Positions 1,985 through 26,176 of a stretch of 64,000 bases of DNA are shown in pieces. A model generated the notes under the pieces. That model made no database searches. It saw only the letters and a program-made list of their open reading frames with translations, and had not been told where the DNA came from. The DNA comes from Armatimonadota bacterium. GTDB lineage: Bacteria > Armatimonadota > Fimbriimonadia > Fimbriimonadales > Fimbriimonadaceae. Made by a program: the position numbers and the translations under genes. Every line of letters begins with the position of its first letter. Position 1 is the stretch's first letter. The stretch is taken from NCBI GenBank assembly GCA_018268315.1, contig JAFDWU010000001.1, positions 287,280-351,279 on the forward strand, written 5' to 3'.

Positions 1985-3259
1985 CTATTTTAGCTTGGCT
2001 TGATCGATTAGGAAGTCCGAAACCTTGCGGGAAATCGCACGGAACGTAAGTTCCTCGCCCGATTGAGTGCGGCGCAGAACCTGCACGACTTCCTCGGGGC
2101 TCACGCCATATTCGCCGGCCATTTCGATCACTTCTCGCTGAATATCGGTCGGGTCGATCTTCATCTTCTCGGCCGCGAAAACTTCTCGGATAAGGAGGGC
2201 TCGCATTACGTGGACCTTTGCCTTCTCCTTCCAGTTATCGATGAGCTCTTGAAGGGTCATGCCGTTCTCTTCCGCGAACTGCGGGAGCGTTTTGCCCAGC
2301 TTGACCTGCTCCTGCTCGGTTTCCTGCAAGCGGCGGTAGGCAAGCTGCTCGTACATGCCTTCGGGGGCTTCGACCTTGCTCTTTTCAAGCAAGGCGTCCA
2401 GAAGCTTATCGGCGAGGATTTCTCGCGACGCCTGCTTCTTGGCCTCCTCCATCATGGTGCGGACGGTCTTCTTCAGTTCGTCCAGCGATTGGGCCTTCAG
2501 GGTCTTGGCGAATTCGTCATCCAGTTCAGGCAACTTAACGGCGCTGATGGAATTCACGGAAATGATGCATTTCAGCTTCTTGCCGGCCCATTCCTTCTCC
2601 TGGAAGTTCTTCGGGAAGGTGAGTTCGACGTGCTTAAGCTCTTCGATGGCCATGCCATCAAGGTGCTTGTCTAGCTCATCGAAGGTGCTGCCGATGACGG
2701 ACATGAAGTTCTTGCCTTCGCTTTTCTCGCCATCGATGCGGATGTTGACCACCGCGACATCGCCGCTTTGGGCGTTGCGGCCCGTCACCGCTTCGCGAGT
2801 GCTCTTGCGCTTGCGGAACTCCTCGACTTGCTTGTCGACTTCCTCGTCGGTCACCTCGGTGCTTGGCGCCTCAGCCTTCAGGCCCTTGTATTCGCCTAGT
2901 TTAACGATGGGCGGGAGGGCGACGGTGATCGTGAATTCGCACTCGTTCTTCTCTTCGTCCAGCTTCTGAACGTCAACGGCGGGGCGGACGGTGGGCTCGG
3001 GGTTAATCTTGTGCTCTTCAAAAGCGCGCTTAACGGCATCGCGCACGATGGTCTCAGCGGCTTCATCGTTGATGGTCGACTTATCGACAACCTGCTCAAC
3101 AACATGGCGGGGCGCATGGCCAGGGCGGAAACCGGCAACCTTCACCTTCTTGGCAATCTTCTTGTAAGCCTTCGTGTAGCCCTCGCTCACTTCTTGCGGA
3201 GCGCAGACGACGGCAAGCTTTACGGTAACCGGGTTGATATCTTCTCGGGTAGTAGTCAT
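1985..3259 (-). CDS. tig: Trigger factor (ribosome-associated chaperone, peptidyl-prolyl isomerase)
   Basis: Chaperone that binds the ribosomal exit tunnel and shields nascent chains. The N-terminal ribosome-binding domain carries the signature loop GFRPGHAPRHV near residue 45 (family GFRxGKxP). A FKBP-like domain follows (AQSGDVAVVNIRIDG), then a long helical C-terminal domain. The length from the ATG at 3259 is 424 residues, normal for the family. An in-frame TTG at 3280 would add seven residues; the ATG is preferred because the protein then starts just before the first beta-strand (INPVTVKLAVV). It lies upstream of clpP-clpX on the same strand, the usual arrangement. Confidence 0.95.
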   Translation of the reverse strand: MTTTREDINPVTVKLAVVCAPQEVSEGYTKAYKKIAKKVKVAGFRPGHAPRHVVEQVVDKSTINDEAAETIVRDAVKRAFEEHKINPEPTVRPAVDVQKLDEEKNECEFTITVALPPIVKLGEYKGLKAEAPSTEVTDEEVDKQVEEFRKRKSTREAVTGRNAQSGDVAVVNIRIDGEKSEGKNFMSVIGSTFDELDKHLDGMAIEELKHVELTFPKNFQEKEWAGKKLKCIISVNSISAVKLPELDDEFAKTLKAQSLDELKKTVRTMMEEAKKQASREILADKLLDALLEKSKVEAPEGMYEQLAYRRLQETEQEQVKLGKTLPQFAEENGMTLQELIDNWKEKAKVHVMRALLIREVFAAEKMKIDPTDIQREVIEMAGEYGVSPEEVVQVLRRTQSGEELTFRAISRKVSDFLIDQAKLK

Positions 3260-3362
3260 AACTGTGATGGATCGAATCAAGGCAGAAATCTGGACGATCC
3301 TGTCTCCTTAATTTACCTAGCCTGGGGCAAGTGAAACCCTGGCAATGTTAGCAAGACGGAAG

Positions 3363-4268
3363 TTAGGCTCGAATTAGGTCGTTTAGGGCTAACTCAAGCG
3401 TTCGGAATTGGAACTGAAACCCGCCGTGCTCCGACTTAAGCGGCAGAACCCGCTGCCCCCGAAGGATGAGCTCCGGTTCGACGCCGGTAAGCGGTTCCAG
3501 CAGCGAGAACATGAATGCAGGCGCAGGTGGGCACCACGGGCGATGGCAGGCTCTGCGGAGTCCGGCCATGAACTCGCCGTTTGTGACCGGCACGGGGGCG
3601 GTGCCGTTGAGCGGGCCCTCGATATTGGGGTTATTCATCGCCCAAACAGTCATCTGGGTTAGGTCGTTGATATGAATCCAGGACATGTACTGCTTGCCAT
3701 TCCCTGCGGCGCCACCAAGAAACTTTCTGGTGATGTTCAGCAATGGTGGCAAGAGGCCATCTTGGGTTGAAAGCACGTGGCCGGTCCGCAGGAAAACGCG
3801 CCGGACGTCCGGGACGTGGGCGTTGCGGGTGGCATCTTCCCACTGCCGACAGACTTCTGGCAAGAATCCTCGGCCAAGCGGTGAGGCTTCGTCGAACGCC
3901 TCGCTAAGCCCGTAGCCGTAGTAGCCGATCGCGCTGCCGTTGATCCAAACCTTTGGCTTGTTCGGCACGGTTTCAATGGCTTCCCCAATCGCGAGCGTGC
4001 TACGAACGCGAGAATCAATGATCCTTCGCTGGGCATCGGCGGTCCATCGCTGAGCAATGCGTTCGCCGACGAGATTGATGACGGCATGGGCCTCGTCCAG
4101 CGCGGAAACCCACGGGCCAACGGTTACGCCATCCCAAGCAACGCCGGTGGTCCCTACCGGGCCCTTGCCCGAGCGGGACAGAACGAAAACGGAGCAAGAA
4201 TTTGCCACCAAAGCTTTACAGATCGACGAACCAATGAGGCCGGTGCCACCGGCGACCACGACTTTCAT
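3363..4268 (-). CDS. TIGR01777 family NAD(P)-dependent epimerase/dehydratase-like protein
   Basis: Extended short-chain dehydrogenase fold protein of the YfcH/SDR39U1 type. It begins with the nucleotide-binding motif VVAGGTGLIGSSI (GxxGxxG). Further family hallmarks are INLVGERIAQRWT, WINGSAIGYYG and the C-terminal DUF1731-like end (EPELILRGQRVLP). The 301-residue length is normal. The substrate of the family is unknown. Its start codon overlaps the stop of ubiX by 4 bp, so the two are translationally coupled. Confidence 0.85.
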   Translation of the reverse strand: MKVVVAGGTGLIGSSICKALVANSCSVFVLSRSGKGPVGTTGVAWDGVTVGPWVSALDEAHAVINLVGERIAQRWTADAQRRIIDSRVRSTLAIGEAIETVPNKPKVWINGSAIGYYGYGLSEAFDEASPLGRGFLPEVCRQWEDATRNAHVPDVRRVFLRTGHVLSTQDGLLPPLLNITRKFLGGAAGNGKQYMSWIHINDLTQMTVWAMNNPNIEGPLNGTAPVPVTNGEFMAGLRRACHRPWCPPAPAFMFSLLEPLTGVEPELILRGQRVLPLKSEHGGFQFQFRTLELALNDLIRA

Positions 4269-4864
4269 TCTTCAGCCATCCATTGTTTCTGCAAGGGGTC
4301 TTCGATACCGAGGTTTTGGAGGATGCGGGCAACCACGGTGTCGGCAAGTTCCTCAAGGGAGCCCGGGCGGTTATACCAAGCCGGGCATGCGGGGATGATC
4401 TGAGCTCCCGCCTCGGCAAGGGTGGTGAGATTGCGCAGCATGATGACGTTCATGGGCATCTCGCGGGGCACGAGGATGAGGTTACGGCGCTCCTTCAGGC
4501 AGACGTCGGCCGAGCGGGTCAGCAAATCGTTGGAGATACCATGCGCGATTCTTCCTACCGTTCCCATCGAGCAAGGGACGATCACCATGCCATCGTGGCG
4601 AAAAGAGCCGCTGGCCGGAGGCGTGAAATAGTCCCGCGAGTCCAAGAGCCGGATGTTTGGTAGGTCTTCACCCAACCAGTCCTTGAGGGTGAAGGATTTG
4701 CGATCCAGCTTTACGCCGAGCTCCTGATGGGCGACCTGCAGCGCCTGATCGCTCAGGATAAGGAAGATCTCCTTGTAATGCCTTGCGGCATGAATCAGGA
4801 AGCGCTGAGCATAAATCGCTCCGCTCGCTCCCGTTATTCCGACGACAAGCTTGCCTGTACTCAT
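4265..4864 (-). CDS. ubiX: UbiX-family flavin prenyltransferase
   Basis: Makes prenylated FMN, the cofactor of UbiD-type decarboxylases. The N-terminus LVVGITGASGAIYAQRFL is the flavin-binding signature. The centre has VPCSMGTVGRIAHGISNDLL and the C-terminal third has LVPREMPMNVIMLRNL, both diagnostic of UbiX. The 199-residue length is typical. No ubiD lies next to it. Because mqnE is only 0.8 kb away and the futalosine pathway ends in a UbiD-type decarboxylation of 1,4-dihydroxy-6-naphthoate, supplying that step is a reasonable inference. Confidence 0.9.
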   Translation of the reverse strand: MSTGKLVVGITGASGAIYAQRFLIHAARHYKEIFLILSDQALQVAHQELGVKLDRKSFTLKDWLGEDLPNIRLLDSRDYFTPPASGSFRHDGMVIVPCSMGTVGRIAHGISNDLLTRSADVCLKERRNLILVPREMPMNVIMLRNLTTLAEAGAQIIPACPAWYNRPGSLEELADTVVARILQNLGIEDPLQKQWMAEE

Positions 4865-4912
4865 AAGGGCCGCGGCATTTGCGCGGCTCCTTAGAATCTA
4901 CTCGCAATGAGG

Positions 4913-5530
4913 TTACTGTGTGGCGAAGCTCGTGAAGTAAATCTTGAGAATCGGCCCCTCATCGGAGTCCCATTCATGCTCGTGCTTCTTCAGCACGTGC
5001 TTACCTTTGGCGTCCTTTGCGGGCTCTTCCGCAGCATCCTTTTTATCCGCTTTCTTGGGGTCGTCGCTTAGTTTGCTATCGGAGGCTTCCGGCTTGTCTG
5101 GCTTCTTGGCGTTTGCTTCAAGAACCTTATTGACAGCCTCGCACAGGTCCTGCTTGAGAAGCGCCGTTCCCGCGGAGTCGCGAATATCATTGCTTGTGGT
5201 GGAGCGGAGAACGGTGATAATGGCGTCTTTGATCGCCGGCATGTTCTCTTCTAATTCCTTCTTTTCCACGCCCTTCTTTAGCAGAACTGCGATTTCGGTT
5301 CGGCAATAAACCTGGCCGCCCCCGGCAAGATTCACGAGGAACTCTCCGACCGGCTCAATCGTGCCCGCTTCAACCTTCGGCTTGGGCTTGGGCGCCTTCG
5401 ACTTCATCGCGAAGAATCCGCCGCCTGCTAGCACGAGGGCGAGAATAATGATCAGCGGGAGTTTGCCGCCCTTCTTCTTAGGGGCTTCCCCTTCCGGTGT
5501 CGCTTCTTTCTTTTCTGCTTCTTCAGACAT
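4913..5530 (-). CDS. fliL: FliL-like flagellar basal-body-associated protein
   Basis: Single-pass inner-membrane protein of the flagellar motor family. A charged cytoplasmic N-terminus is followed by one membrane helix (LPLIIILALVLAGGGFF, about residues 24-40), a Lys/Pro linker, and the FliL periplasmic signature (GEFLVNLAGG). It ends in KIYFTSFATQ, matching the family ending (VYFTxFVIQ). A Lys/Asp/Glu/Ala-rich insertion of about 45 residues (near 140-185) separates the core from this last strand and is unusual. No other flagellar structural gene is adjacent, so its motor role is inferred from homology. Confidence 0.75.
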   Translation of the reverse strand: MSEEAEKKEATPEGEAPKKKGGKLPLIIILALVLAGGGFFAMKSKAPKPKPKVEAGTIEPVGEFLVNLAGGGQVYCRTEIAVLLKKGVEKKELEENMPAIKDAIITVLRSTTSNDIRDSAGTALLKQDLCEAVNKVLEANAKKPDKPEASDSKLSDDPKKADKKDAAEEPAKDAKGKHVLKKHEHEWDSDEGPILKIYFTSFATQ

Positions 5531-5607
5531 GGTAGGACATCCTTTACTTCGGCAGATTTACCGGCGTTTTCGAGTCCCGAATTGATGAAGGTGGCGTAGT
5601 AACGTGA

Positions 5608-5642
5608 AACTTTCAATTTTTCTTGAAAGTTCAAGGTATAAG
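5608..5642 (+). promoter_or_regulatory. Candidate mqnE promoter with a perfect inverted repeat
   Basis: A perfect 9-bp inverted repeat, AACTTTCAA (5608-5616) and TTGAAAGTT (5623-5631) around a 6-nt T-rich spacer, lies just before a -10-like TATAAG (5637-5642), which is 9 nt before the mqnE ATG. The repeat covers the expected -35 region. It could be a repressor operator or an RNA hairpin; no T-tract follows it, so a terminator is unlikely. Confidence 0.45.
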
Positions 5643-5651
5643 GATGGAGAA

Positions 5652-6818
5652 ATGTCGTTAGCCGTCAGTCGCGTCGTTGGGCCAGAGCTTGAGCCTATTG
5701 CAGAGAAGGTCCTGGCCGGGGAGCGGCTAAGCTTTGAGGACGGCCTAACGCTGTACCGAACCCACAACCTGACGGGAGTGGGCTATCTGGCCAACATCGT
5801 ACGCGAGCGGCTGCACGGGGCGAAGACGTATTACGTTCGCAACCAGCACATCAACTACACAAACATCTGCAACAAGTTCTGCAAGTTCTGTAGCTTCTAT
5901 GCAAAGCGCGGCGGCCCCGCACCTTACGAGATGAGCCTGGACGAGGTTCGGCAGCGGTTGAGCTGGCATTCCGATGTGCGGATCACGGAAGTGCACATGG
6001 TGGGCGGCATCAACCCACGTCTTCCCTATCAGTACTACATGGATTTGGTGCGCGCGGTGAAAGAAACGCGGCCCGGCGTTCACGTTAAGGCATTCACTGC
6101 GGTTGAGATCGTTGAGATTGCCCGCGTTGGCGGCGTGACCATTGATCAGGCGCTCGCGGACCTCATTGAAGCTGGCCTAGACAGCCTGCCGGGCGGTGGC
6201 ATTGAAGTGCTTAGCGACCGCGTTCATCACGAGCTGTTTGGCAAGAAGCTGAACGGCGAGGAATGGAAAGATGTGGCGCGGGCGGCGGCTAAGCTTGGCC
6301 TGAAGCAGTACGCAACCATGCTTTACGGGCATATCGAGACCGATGAGGAGCGCGTTGACCATCTGGTGCAGTTGCGCGAGTTGCAGGACGAGACAAAGCA
6401 CTTCCTGACCTTTACTCCGCTTTGCTTCCACCCGGAAAAGACTGAGCTTGAGCATCTCGCCCTGCCGACGGCGGACACGGATTTGCGCAACATCGCGGTG
6501 AGCCGTTTGATGCTGGATAACTTCGAGCATGTGAAGTCGTTCTGGATCATGAACTCGGTTCCGGTGACCCAGATGGCGCTTTGGTACGGGGCGGACGACG
6601 CTGACGGCACCGTGCATGAATACGAGATCACGTACAAGGATGGCGAGTTTGGAAACAAGAGCCAGGTTCTTACCCGCGCGAACATGATTCGCATGATTGA
6701 GGAAGTTGGCAGGGTCGCAATTGAGCGAGATTCGCTGTACAACGAGATCGTGGACAACGAGCCGGAAAAGCCCGTAACTGCACGCCGGCTTGAACCTGTG
6801 CCAATGATCAAGTCCTAG
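5652..6818 (+). CDS. mqnE: Aminofutalosine synthase MqnE (radical SAM)
   Basis: Joins 3-enolpyruvyl-benzoate to S-adenosylmethionine by radical chemistry, giving 6-amino-6-deoxyfutalosine in the futalosine route to menaquinone. The radical-SAM cluster motif is Cys73-x3-Cys77-x2-Cys80 (CNKFCKFC), preceded by RNQHINYTN, which is typical of MqnE. MVGGINP and the C-terminal HEYEITYKDGEFGNKSQ also fit the family. I chose the ATG at 5652, preceded by GGATGGAGA and by TATAAG 9 nt upstream; it gives 388 residues. A GTG at 5604 is in frame but lies inside the inverted repeat. It pairs functionally with mqnC at 37047. Confidence 0.93.
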   Translation: MSLAVSRVVGPELEPIAEKVLAGERLSFEDGLTLYRTHNLTGVGYLANIVRERLHGAKTYYVRNQHINYTNICNKFCKFCSFYAKRGGPAPYEMSLDEVRQRLSWHSDVRITEVHMVGGINPRLPYQYYMDLVRAVKETRPGVHVKAFTAVEIVEIARVGGVTIDQALADLIEAGLDSLPGGGIEVLSDRVHHELFGKKLNGEEWKDVARAAAKLGLKQYATMLYGHIETDEERVDHLVQLRELQDETKHFLTFTPLCFHPEKTELEHLALPTADTDLRNIAVSRLMLDNFEHVKSFWIMNSVPVTQMALWYGADDADGTVHEYEITYKDGEFGNKSQVLTRANMIRMIEEVGRVAIERDSLYNEIVDNEPEKPVTARRLEPVPMIKS

Positions 6819-20128: not shown

Positions 20129-20725
20129 ATGAGCAGCCGCGCAACCGAAGATATGGTGTTGGTCGAACGGGCCAGGCGCGGAGACCGTTCAGCCCTCGAC
20201 GAGTTGATCATGGCCTATGAGGCGAAGGCCTACCAGTACGCTTATCGGCTCACGAGAAATTCTGAAGAAGCAAGCGACGTGGTGGCGGATGCATTTGTGC
20301 GCGTATTCAACGCACTAGGGAACTTCAAGGGTCAAAGCAGCTTCAACACTTGGCTTTACCGAATCATCACGAACTGCTACTTGGACATCAAGAAGAAGGA
20401 GCGCAATCGACCAACCTTAAGCATTGAGACCGCCCTAACCACGGCAGACGGTGAGATCACCCGGGAAATTGAAGATCCAAGCCGCGATCCGTACGAGGAA
20501 ACCGAGCGGAACAGCCGTGAAGCGCGGGTGCAAGATGCGGTAGCCCAGTTGCCGGAATACCAACGGGCGATGATCGTGATGTACCACTCAGAAAACATGA
20601 GTTACGAGGAAATAGCAGCGGCTTTAGATTTACCCATTGGAACCGTGAAGAGCCGACTGAATCGAGCGCGGCTCAGTATTCGAGATTTGTTAATGAAAGA
20701 TGAGGAACTGTTTCGTTTAGGATGA
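20129..20725 (+). CDS. RNA polymerase ECF sigma factor (first copy)
   Basis: Region 2 is present as LIMAYEAKAYQYAYRLTRNSEEASDVVADAFVRVF, with the -10 recognition segment FNTWLYRIITNCYLD. Region 4 ends with MSYEEIAAALDLPIGTVKSRLNRARLSIRDLL. It has 198 residues, and the acidic linker between the regions (TTADGEITREIEDPSRD) resembles that of SigW/RpoE-like ECF factors. The ATG at 20129 follows AGGG. The downstream gene at 20831 has an anti-sigma-like organisation and is the probable regulator. Confidence 0.9.
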   Translation: MSSRATEDMVLVERARRGDRSALDELIMAYEAKAYQYAYRLTRNSEEASDVVADAFVRVFNALGNFKGQSSFNTWLYRIITNCYLDIKKKERNRPTLSIETALTTADGEITREIEDPSRDPYEETERNSREARVQDAVAQLPEYQRAMIVMYHSENMSYEEIAAALDLPIGTVKSRLNRARLSIRDLLMKDEELFRLG

Positions 20726-22527: not shown

Positions 22528-22648
22528 CGTAAATTTTCGGTATCCGTTCGCAAATTTCTAGGGCGAACCTACTTAGGGCAAAAATGTGAGTCTTTCGTCC
22601 TGATTTGGTTATGCCGACTTTGGGGGGTCTTATACTATTGGATGGCGA

Positions 22649-22661
22649 CCCCTCTGAGGGG
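22649..22661 (+). promoter_or_regulatory. Small inverted repeat covering the ribosome-binding site of the second ECF sigma gene
   Basis: CCCCTC-T-GAGGGG is a perfect 6-bp inverted repeat (effectively a CCCCT/AGGGG stem with a CTG loop). It contains the AGGGG that would serve as the ribosome-binding site 9 nt before the ATG at 22671. TATACT, a possible -10 box, lies at 22631-22636. The stem could limit translation; this is an inference from sequence. Confidence 0.4.
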
Positions 22662-22670
22662 CCGCCACAT

Positions 22671-23225
22671 ATGGCAAAAAAACAAATAGTGGGCTGGGAG
22701 GGACACCTTATCCAGCGTGCTCAAGAAGGCGAGCTTATTGCCTTCGAACTCCTTTCGGAGATTCATCGACCACTTCTCATGAGCCAGGCTCTGAGAACTC
22801 TGCGAAACGCCGACGACGCCCAGGATGCTGTCCAAGAGACGCTTCTGAAGGCGATGCGCGCGATCAAAGAGTTCGATTCAGGCCGGCCGATTCGACCGTG
22901 GCTAGCGCGCATTTGCGCGAATTGCTGCATGGATGTTTTGCGTCAGAGAAAGCGCACTCCAGAATCAATTGAGGGACATGAGCATTTGGTGGCCGACCAA
23001 GCTTCGCTTGAACAGGAGGCAAGCGCAAGAATGGAGCGGGACCAAGTGGTGGAAGCGGTGAATCATCTTCCGGAGACCTATCGTCGAATCATCTTCATGC
23101 GCCATTTCCGGCACATGGACGTAAACGAGATCGCCTCGGCGCTTAACACGCCTGAGGGGACTGTTAAAAGTTGGCTGTTCCGCGCGAGAGCTCAGCTCCG
23201 CAAGGAACTCCTGTTGGCTTCGTAG
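22671..23225 (+). CDS. RNA polymerase ECF sigma factor (second copy)
   Basis: Sigma-70 family regions 2 and 4: LRNADDAQDAVQETLLKAMRAI with RPWLARICANCCMDVLR, then LPETYRRIIFMRHFRHMDVNEIASALNTPEGTVKSWLFRARAQLR. The ATG at 22671 gives 184 residues starting MAKKQIVGWEGH. An upstream in-frame TTG/ATG (22605/22611) would place the likely -10 box TATACT inside the coding region, so it is not used. No anti-sigma gene is adjacent on the same strand. Confidence 0.87.
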   Translation: MAKKQIVGWEGHLIQRAQEGELIAFELLSEIHRPLLMSQALRTLRNADDAQDAVQETLLKAMRAIKEFDSGRPIRPWLARICANCCMDVLRQRKRTPESIEGHEHLVADQASLEQEASARMERDQVVEAVNHLPETYRRIIFMRHFRHMDVNEIASALNTPEGTVKSWLFRARAQLRKELLLAS

Positions 23226-24076: not shown

Positions 24077-24883
24077 CTAGGAGGCTTTGAGCAAGCCGCC
24101 GATAACGCCTTTCATTCTTTCAGTGAAGCTCTGGTGCCTTTGTGGAAGACCCTCGCCAAGCAATACGCCAGCAATCCCCTTGATATCTAGGGATGCGGGC
24201 AGATGCGGGTTGGCAATGTAGAACGGTTGTCGCTGACGGATATGGGCCAGTGCCTGCTGATCGCTTCTAACGAAGCCTGCGTACTTCAGAGGCACGCCGA
24301 GGAACTGCTGGCTAATCGATGTCAGCTTCGCATAAATCATGCGGCCCTGCTGCTCGCCGTCAACCATGTTCATCACCACGCGGATGCTGGCATCCGGCTT
24401 GCGGGCGAGGATCGCTTTGGCGGTGGCATAGCCATCGGTCAGCGAAGCGGGGTCTGGCGTGGCGACAAGAAGAATCTCATCGGCGGCGCCAAGGAACGTC
24501 ATGACGTTCTCATCGATTCCGGCGCCGGTATCGAAGATGAGGATATCGGTGGAGCGCTCAAGCTCGTTAAGCTGGGTAAGGAAGGCTTCGGCCTTCGGGC
24601 CGGAAAGATTGATGAGTGATTCAATGCCGCTGCCGCCTGCGATAAGCCGAATGCCACCAGGGCCAACCTGAATGACTTCGCTCAGGCGCTTCTCGCCGGT
24701 CAGTGCTTGCTGAAGCGTGTACTGAGTGCGGGAGCCAAGGACGACGTCGAGGTTAGCGAGGCCAATATCGGCGTCGAATACCACGACCCGCTGCCCGCGA
24801 TCAGCAAGTGCGATCGCAAGGTTGGCGCTGATGTTGGTTTTGCCAACTCCGCCCTTTCCACTGGTTACTGCGTAGGTTCTCAT
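24077..24883 (-). CDS. flhG: FlhG/YlxH-type MinD-family ATPase
   Basis: Deviant Walker A motif GKGGVGKTN near residue 9, with the Asn after Thr that is usual in FlhG, then DADIGLANLDVVLG, IFDTGAGIDENVM and VATPDPASLTDGYA (FlhG has TTPEPTxxxDAY). It has 268 residues and ends in a short Lys/Leu helix (TERMKGVIGGLLKA) that could serve as a membrane-targeting sequence. FlhG controls flagellar number and placement, often with FlhF; no flhF is adjacent. It lies 6 bp after the MshEN-pseudokinase gene in the same transcription unit. Confidence 0.8.
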   Translation of the reverse strand: MRTYAVTSGKGGVGKTNISANLAIALADRGQRVVVFDADIGLANLDVVLGSRTQYTLQQALTGEKRLSEVIQVGPGGIRLIAGGSGIESLINLSGPKAEAFLTQLNELERSTDILIFDTGAGIDENVMTFLGAADEILLVATPDPASLTDGYATAKAILARKPDASIRVVMNMVDGEQQGRMIYAKLTSISQQFLGVPLKYAGFVRSDQQALAHIRQRQPFYIANPHLPASLDIKGIAGVLLGEGLPQRHQSFTERMKGVIGGLLKAS

Positions 24884-24889
24884 GTAAGT

Positions 24890-26176
24890 TTAGGCGGCCT
24901 TGTTGTTCCTTCCAAGAATGCGATCGATGATGCTGATTTGCTTTGGCTGGAAAACCGGCTCGGACACAATCGTGTCGAGAAGATGCTCTCGCTCCTGGGC
25001 GGTGTTCTGATTGAGCGAGTGGCCGAGAGCGGTCCAGTTGAAGGAGCGCAGGGCGCTGGCAACTTCAATCGGCGATCCAAAGCGGTCTTTCGAATCAGAA
25101 GCAAGGCAGTTCGCCAAAATGTCCTTCATCGGCGCGGGAATGTACGGCTCAGGCTTCTGGTTGAAGCCGTAGCAACAATCCTTGAGCAGGCTGCCGAGTG
25201 CGAAGGCGGTGGAAGCACCGGGGTTATCGCCGTCAAACGCTGCGGACGGGCTGCGATAGTGCTCGGGCGGGGCAACAAACGGCACCAGCACCGGACCGCG
25301 AGCCCCCATGAAAATGTTTTGTGCGCAAACCCAGTTCCCTGCTCCGCCCGCCTTTTGGAGGTCGTCAAGGGATTCGGCGATCTTGCCGACAAGCTCGGCA
25401 GACTGGATGAGCTGGCGTCGACCGCGAATTCTTAGGATTCTATCGAGATTTTCACCGGCTACGCGCTGAAGGGTTACCCATCGGAAACCGTTCTCTTCGG
25501 CGATTTCGTAGACGGCGGTCATGACCTCGAACACGCCCTTGGCGCTTGCCTTTACGGCTTCCAGGCAGGTTGCGGCATCCGGGTGATCGAGCGGGACCGC
25601 GATGAGGCTGACGGGGCGGTCCATGAAGCTATCGTAAGCATCGAACAGGGCGATGTTGTTGATCTTGTATCGGGAGAAGAGCTTTTCGTAGCGCTTCGGC
25701 GCCTTGTCGGCTTCAGGAAAGGCTTCGGGAATGAATTCGTCGTTGAGGCCGTAAGCGGACCGGATGCGTCGGGCGAGAGCGCAGCTCGGCGCGACGTGGA
25801 GGATGACGTTGCTTCGTACGAGAGCCATCAGGCGGTCGGTGGCAACGACATCAATGGGGTCGGCGATAGCGACCATGAGGCCGGCGGCGGTTTGAGAGAT
25901 CGGCAGGGCGTTGAGCTGGACTGCCTCTTCGGGAGTCAGCCGTCGGAGAGCATCTGGCTCGATTTCGACTTCAAGCGGATTGATAATCTGATAGCCGTAC
26001 TGATCGGCAAGGCACTGAGCCACCTGCTCCTCAGTAACAAACCCGCGCTCAATGAGAATTTCGCCGAGCCTTCGGTTGCTGACGCGCTGCTCTGCGAGCG
26101 CGATGGACAGTTGCATTTGATTCAGGCATCCTGCCGATGAAAGCAATTCGCCAAGCCGCTTATATGTTTGGATCAT
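24890..26176 (-). CDS. Two-domain protein: c-di-GMP-binding MshEN module plus degenerate protein-kinase fold
   Basis: Residues 7-59 hold two 24-residue motifs, R7LG...Q30 and R36LG...Q59, each fitting RLGxxLxxxGxxxxxxLxxxLxxQ and separated by exactly five residues, as in the c-di-GMP receptor domain of MshE/PilB ATPases. The T2SSE-N fold continues to about 150. There is no ATPase domain. Instead residues 162-379 follow the order of a Ser/Thr kinase: RYEKLF, DRPVSLIAVPLD, an alpha-E-like helix, YRSPSAAF in place of the APE segment, FALGSLLKDCCYG, and DRFGSPIEVASALRSF. The VAIK Lys, HRD and DFG are all absent, so it is a predicted pseudokinase. The C-terminal 50 residues are a tail. It is cotranscribed with flhG. 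Confidence 0.7.
   Translation of the reverse strand: MIQTYKRLGELLSSAGCLNQMQLSIALAEQRVSNRRLGEILIERGFVTEEQVAQCLADQYGYQIINPLEVEIEPDALRRLTPEEAVQLNALPISQTAAGLMVAIADPIDVVATDRLMALVRSNVILHVAPSCALARRIRSAYGLNDEFIPEAFPEADKAPKRYEKLFSRYKINNIALFDAYDSFMDRPVSLIAVPLDHPDAATCLEAVKASAKGVFEVMTAVYEIAEENGFRWVTLQRVAGENLDRILRIRGRRQLIQSAELVGKIAESLDDLQKAGGAGNWVCAQNIFMGARGPVLVPFVAPPEHYRSPSAAFDGDNPGASTAFALGSLLKDCCYGFNQKPEPYIPAPMKDILANCLASDSKDRFGSPIEVASALRSFNWTALGHSLNQNTAQEREHLLDTIVSEPVFQPKQISIIDRILGRNNKAA

Follow-up and report, generated by a model that had tools for sequence, protein, structure and literature searches.

A predicted c-di-GMP receptor with a pseudokinase domain is encoded beside an FlhG-type ATPase in Fimbriimonadales

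What does a protein that joins a c-di-GMP receptor domain to a kinase-like region do when it is encoded immediately upstream of an FlhG-type ATPase? In this study, we addressed this question for a locus in a 64,000-nucleotide stretch of DNA (hereafter the window) from a member of the Armatimonadota, family Fimbriimonadaceae. The receptor gene (428 aa; 24890..26176, minus strand; called as an open reading frame with its translation and represented by 14 full-length orthologues in the order) is followed after a 6-bp intergenic gap (24884..24889) by the ATPase gene (268 aa; 24077..24883, minus strand), and an earlier, sequence-only reading had placed both genes and their spacing correctly. We lean, though not heavily, towards the view that the two genes form a functional pair coupling c-di-GMP to flagellation. 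Comparison across the order Fimbriimonadales suggests that MshEN proteins act with an FlhG that is independent of FlhF, and that they probably tune flagellation rather than pili.

The N-terminus of the receptor is an MshEN domain. Model NF053729 matches residues 7-59 over its full length (model 1-53 of 53; E=1.1e-18; 66.8 bits, cut-off 38), taking in two 24-residue RLGxx(L/V/I)... motifs with a 5-residue spacer between them; motif 1 spans residues 7-30 (26087..26158, minus strand) and motif 2 residues 36-59 (26000..26071, minus strand), as the sequence-only reading had proposed. The C-terminal subdomain follows at residues 60-144 (25745..25999, minus strand), where PF05157 (E=2.3e-10) exceeds its gathering score. 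Scored against the MshEN consensus of PMC5013675, as extended in PMC11731258, 15 of the 16 key positions agree and one, with V52 in place of Leu, does not; lesser consensus positions deviate at S13 and C17 of motif 1 and at F46 of motif 2. Judged by sequence, the c-di-GMP motifs of the receptor are intact, though not perfect, and the domain is predicted to bind c-di-GMP. Its nearest solved relatives by sequence are the N-terminal domains of PilF, MshE and PilB. The paired motifs, the spacer and the C-terminal subdomain are the same as in the MshEN domains of MshE, PilB, PilF and NfrB, but here they are joined to a pseudokinase rather than to an ATPase or glycosyltransferase.

Pfam finds no kinase in the window receptor alone, so that a claim of a kinase-like region would look unsupported without the orthologues. 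We therefore relied on an alignment of 14 full-length sequences, made up of the window protein plus 13 orthologues that are 29-41% identical. Ten of these individually match Pkinase in Pfam (best 1.4e-15) and 13 match the PknB-type Ser/Thr-kinase NCBIfam model (best 2.5e-21), and a 13-sequence profile of the kinase-like region only retrieves Mycobacterium PknE at 2.3e-25, with PknA and PknB near 1e-21. An AlphaFold model of the window receptor (mean pLDDT 81) has PknE, PknB and other kinases as its top Foldseek matches (PknE E=4.9e-12, probability 1.00), with a TM-score of about 0.7 when the kinase is used for normalisation. By profile and model, then, the region after MshEN has a bilobal protein-kinase fold, at residues 158-386 (25019..25705, minus strand). 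Both fold and motif order are shared with Ser/Thr kinases of the PknB/PknE type; what the window domain lacks is the VAIK Lys, the HRD and DFG motifs and most of the activation loop. Indeed, none of the 14 aligned sequences has the VAIK Lys, the Asp of HRD, the Asp of DFG or the activation loop: the Lys is replaced, HRDxKPxN has become GLVCPxNI or similar and DFG has become APF or similar, with only a few residues between the DFG and APE positions in well-aligned members. In the window protein the alignments place WVCAQN at the HRDxKPxN catalytic-loop position (residues 282-287; 25316..25333, minus strand), where the catalytic Asp and Lys are missing. Since the catalytic motifs are absent throughout, we class the domain as a pseudokinase rather than an active Hanks-type enzyme, and predict that it binds no ATP. 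The sequence-only reading, which had seen the order of a kinase without its VAIK, HRD and DFG motifs and had looked to structure comparison with kinases, is borne out on both counts.

The product of the second gene carries a deviant Walker A motif, GKGGVGKT (24836..24859, minus strand). It matches FleN at 7.9e-58, the site-determining protein 4rz2 at 2.1e-43, MinD-1 (1hyq) at 1.2e-36 and MinD (3q9l) at 7.4e-16, and on these scores is nearer to FleN/FlhG than to E. coli-type MinD. Its earlier designation as flhG holds for the FleN/FlhG family but not for a standard FlhF partner. The N-terminal DQAxxLR helix, through which FlhG activates FlhF (PMC12826062), was found in none of the 29 MshEN-paired FlhG proteins examined, the window's included, and is present in two FlhG proteins of FlhF-bearing relatives; because it is absent, we call the ATPase FlhG-type, not canonical FlhG. 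No FlhF scored above the family cut-off in the window genome, which is scored 100% complete, or in 47 of the 50 genomes with the MshEN-linked FlhG type. FlhF and the FlhG type occur together in 3 genomes, the FlhG type alone in 47 and FlhF alone in 19; the MshEN-paired FlhG type largely excludes FlhF. In common with the FlhF-FlhG (FleN) switch of flagellar number and position, the window genome, a flagellated one with an EIEALL-bearing FliM, has an FlhG-type MinD-family ATPase with a predicted C-terminal amphipathic helix, but it lacks the DQAxxLR helix and a recognisable FlhF, and it co-encodes a predicted c-di-GMP receptor. In another family of the phylum, locus L154 (genome G099, 2847-6166) has an FlhG gene that precedes an MshEN-kinase protein; the latter has a C-terminal hydrophobic, probable transmembrane segment and keeps a VAIK-type Lys, with HRD and DFG absent. 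Genome G099 also encodes a canonical DQAxxLR FlhG, to which the FlhG of this pair is sister. This pair is a possible intermediate.

To ask how far the two genes stay together, we represented the order Fimbriimonadales by 113 genomes and counted a receptor as full-length at E<=1e-45, with short forms excluded. All 14 full-length orthologues are followed immediately by an FlhG gene in the same orientation, at spacings that run over the 14 loci from a 4-bp overlap to 36 bp, and the linkage to flhG is thereby kept in relatives at 29-41% identity. Named records assign the receptor group to the Armatimonadota, order Fimbriimonadales, and a divergent fifteenth receptor also precedes an FlhG-type gene. 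In a synteny control, none of 21 other window genes (14.4-39.9 kb) lay near the pair in seven named loci, which rules out shared gene order as the cause of the pairing. A tree of 54 FlhG sequences places the partners of pseudokinase receptors together in a single group, excepting divergent outliers and one receptor-less member. A close FlhG relative in genome G019 has no adjacent MshEN gene and counts against the pairing. A scan of public genomes with the single window protein gave no match; an alignment query found relatives. Among MshEN loci sampled from other phyla, the pseudokinase profile matches 0 of 87 MshEN open reading frames and FlhG-type genes are absent, so that the pairing is confined to the Armatimonadota within the sample.

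Several further loci deserve mention. Genome G062 holds a second, divergent receptor-ATPase pair (locus L153, 2922-5123) in which the kinase-like domain is kept, much of the c-di-GMP motif is lost and the ATPase P-loop deviates to GGRTGLGRT. Two 1.5-Mb genomes (G028 and G047) keep flagellin and the FlhG type with no recognisable MshEN protein adjoining. A record named Methanoregulaceae archaeon isolate SJ84 carries the bacterial pair on a contig of 191,364 bp, the same length as contig C35 of genome G010 from the window's family, and its organism name looks wrong. In the window itself, two sigma-70-family genes, ECF-like by eye, lie on one strand within about 3 kb (20129-20725 and 22605-23225).

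Is the target of the pair the flagellum or the pilus? Of 87 genomes with flagellin, 50 carry the FlhG type, compared with 0 of 14 genomes without flagellin. A Fisher test gives p=4e-5 overall and p=7e-4 for the four families holding the FlhG type; kinship is not properly allowed for in this association, and counting the losses as four events leaves approximately p=0.01. Genes of the pilT family are present in 101/101 genomes, with or without the FlhG type. Since the FlhG type tracks flagellin and pilT is universal, the flagellum is the likelier target, and of the proposed link to pilus or flagellum placement it is the flagellar half that is favoured. Counting against a flagellar role are the 37 flagellin-positive genomes without the MshEN-linked FlhG type. 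We dropped two nearly complete genomes (G011 and G041), in which the pair is present and FlhA gives no match, as candidate non-flagellated carriers, since both have flagellin. The window genome has flagellin, FlhA, FliM and PilT-family ATPases; its flhA (locus L152 on contig C6, 14631-16682) ends an apparent cell-wall and division cluster, judged by eye from mur- and ftsA-like genes, and is separate from fliM and fliN, which are on contig C1. That the pair might instead set the number or place of type IV pili is suggested by the MshEN domain, best known from pilus ATPases, by the several PilB/PilT-type ATPases of the window genome and by the ability of MinD-family ATPases to position other organelles. 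We consider this unlikely, given that flagellin-negative genomes never have the FlhG type while the pilT family is found regardless of it, that the ATPase is closest to FleN and that no pilus gene adjoins the pair in the loci examined.

A role in flagellation leaves the question of which part of the receptor works on FlhG, and here the kinase-free relatives are informative. In many of them, a short MshEN protein of approximately 190-210 residues with no kinase domain lies directly before FlhG. Ten FlhG proteins that form one clade (support 100/99) bear a fused MshEN C-subdomain at the N-terminus, within a single open reading frame, where it is detectable in nine, and in seven further loci a long acidic protein ending in the MshEN C-subdomain precedes FlhG. 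That the C-subdomain is fused to FlhG argues strongly for a functional partnership. It suggests that the C-subdomain is what works with FlhG, the c-di-GMP motif and the pseudokinase being modules present in some partners and absent from others. The idea that the pseudokinase forms the core of the partnership thus fails; its distribution argues that it is an optional, non-catalytic insert.

These same relatives raise the possibility that MshEN regulates FlhG without c-di-GMP as the signal, an FlhG-binding module having been kept and the motifs being a relic. In many short partners motif 1 has degenerated, often with loss of Gln30, and the c-di-GMP motif is wholly absent from the fused and acidic partners, which remain coupled to FlhG; c-di-GMP sensing is therefore not essential to every MshEN-FlhG pairing. 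The motif is, however, best preserved among the pseudokinase forms. It is detected in 14/14 full-length orthologues, which keep 13-15 of the 16 key positions despite their 29-41% identity; Gln59 is found in all of them, as is Gln30 of motif 1 (14/14 long forms versus 5/14 short forms). The window genome also has seven GGDEF matches. For the receptor studied here we thus regard a relic motif as improbable, and favour a pair that responds to c-di-GMP.

Still less probable, in our view, is that the pseudokinase serves as a scaffold for a true Ser/Thr kinase pathway, in which another kinase would make the link to FlhG by phosphorylation. It is common for pseudokinases to act on active kinases (reviewed in PMC7586955 and PMC8141879), yet no kinase gene is conserved next to the pair and kinase-free MshEN partners pair with FlhG as well. 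Finally, that an ordinary MshEN gene with a decaying kinase domain is co-transcribed with FlhG by chance is hardly credible: neighbours can persist by descent in close relatives, but this order is kept in 14/14 divergent loci with no other neighbour conserved, the kinase fold of the clade retains invariant residues, and the synteny control and the C-subdomain-FlhG fusions already disfavour it.

If receptor and FlhG do act together, the C-terminus of the receptor offers a candidate point of contact. The sequence EREHLLDTI (residues 395-403; 24968..24994, minus strand) belongs to a DRDxLL family of motifs common to long and short partners, a DRDxLLx(A/S)(L/I) or close variant standing near the C-terminus of 13/14 full-length and 12/14 short forms, and is a candidate FlhG-binding motif. 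FliM, the C-ring protein that FlhG contacts through the FliM N-terminus (PMC12826062), bears a similar motif, EIDALL, at that terminus; the FliM of the window genome has an EIEALL motif and reads SQAEIEALLNSL. Short helices of this kind are common, and the resemblance is a lead only. In an AlphaFold model of a natural MshEN C-subdomain-FlhG fusion the linker helix has low confidence, so that the model gives no support for docking of the DRDxLL motif on FlhG in the manner of EIDALL. Five of the seven acidic proteins carry 2-7 EIDALL-like motifs (shuffle mean <0.03, maximum 2); these repeats, FliM/FliY-like in character, are found in the proteins of loci L165, L172, L174, L176 and L178.

Both proteins also end in tails that may reach the membrane. 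The amphipathic tail of the receptor (residues 414-428; 24893..24937, minus strand) is a candidate membrane anchor, reading FWRRLFGRKAA or similar in orthologues; the window's own tail, ISIIDRILGRNNKAA, is a weaker version and among the least typical of the clade. In the long receptors the tail is presumably similar to the membrane-targeting sequence at the C-terminus of E. coli MinD. The C-terminal helix of FlhG (24080..24130, minus strand) is amphipathic and cationic by computation, as are the C-terminal helices of the FlhG partners of the other long receptors, and is likewise a candidate for membrane targeting only.

We propose the following model. The receptor would read c-di-GMP through its MshEN domain and act on the neighbouring FlhG-type ATPase, which appears to have lost its FlhF-activating helix in a lineage from which FlhF itself seems to be gone; given these two losses, the MshEN protein probably took over as the main regulator of FlhG. 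The pseudokinase, lying between the sensor and the DRDxLL motif, may serve as a non-catalytic lever or scaffold, and the amphipathic tails of both proteins would probably place the complex at the membrane. There, c-di-GMP may change the ATPase cycle of FlhG or its access to FliM, and in turn flagellar number or assembly. The domains, the missing catalytic residues, the conserved pairing, the fusions in relatives, the absence of FlhF and the co-occurrence with flagellin are observed; we infer the binding of c-di-GMP, the contact between receptor and FlhG, the membrane attachment, the competition with FliM, and the effect on flagella together with its sign. Tentatively, and with somewhat less than even confidence, we suggest that the FlhG of Fimbriimonadales has been rewired, such that the FlhF-FlhG switch is gone and an MshEN-type c-di-GMP receptor controls FlhG, here via a dead kinase that transmits the signal.

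The action of a c-di-GMP receptor together with FleN is already known from FleQ/FlrA, through which c-di-GMP controls flagellar and other genes. In Pseudomonas, c-di-GMP, FleQ and FleN act jointly (PMC10083355), and FlhG inhibits FlrA/FleQ (PMC12826062). FleQ is a transcriptional regulator, whereas domain searches of the window receptor find no DNA-binding or AAA+ domain. The novelty claimed from the sequence holds in part, since MshEN domains with Ser/Thr kinases, CheA, CheX and other domains were already listed by Wang et al. 2016 (PMC5013675), while the dead kinase and its pairing with FlhG are new. Our search of the open-access literature found no report of a pseudokinase form of MshEN or of an FlhG partner for it. 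What appears to be new is the combination of a pseudokinase form, an operon with FlhG, the fusions and the apparent loss of FlhF.

Altogether, this analysis bears on two open questions, namely how FlhG acts outside its partnership with FlhF and how c-di-GMP enters the decision to build flagella, and the conserved operon and natural C-subdomain-FlhG fusions provide a defined protein pair with which both can be tested. It also provides a bacterial pseudokinase with a conserved partner, in a little-studied phylum, the Armatimonadota, and suggests that evolution can separate FlhG from FlhF. If our model is correct, c-di-GMP would set the number or position of flagella in these bacteria by a post-translational route that does not need FlhF.
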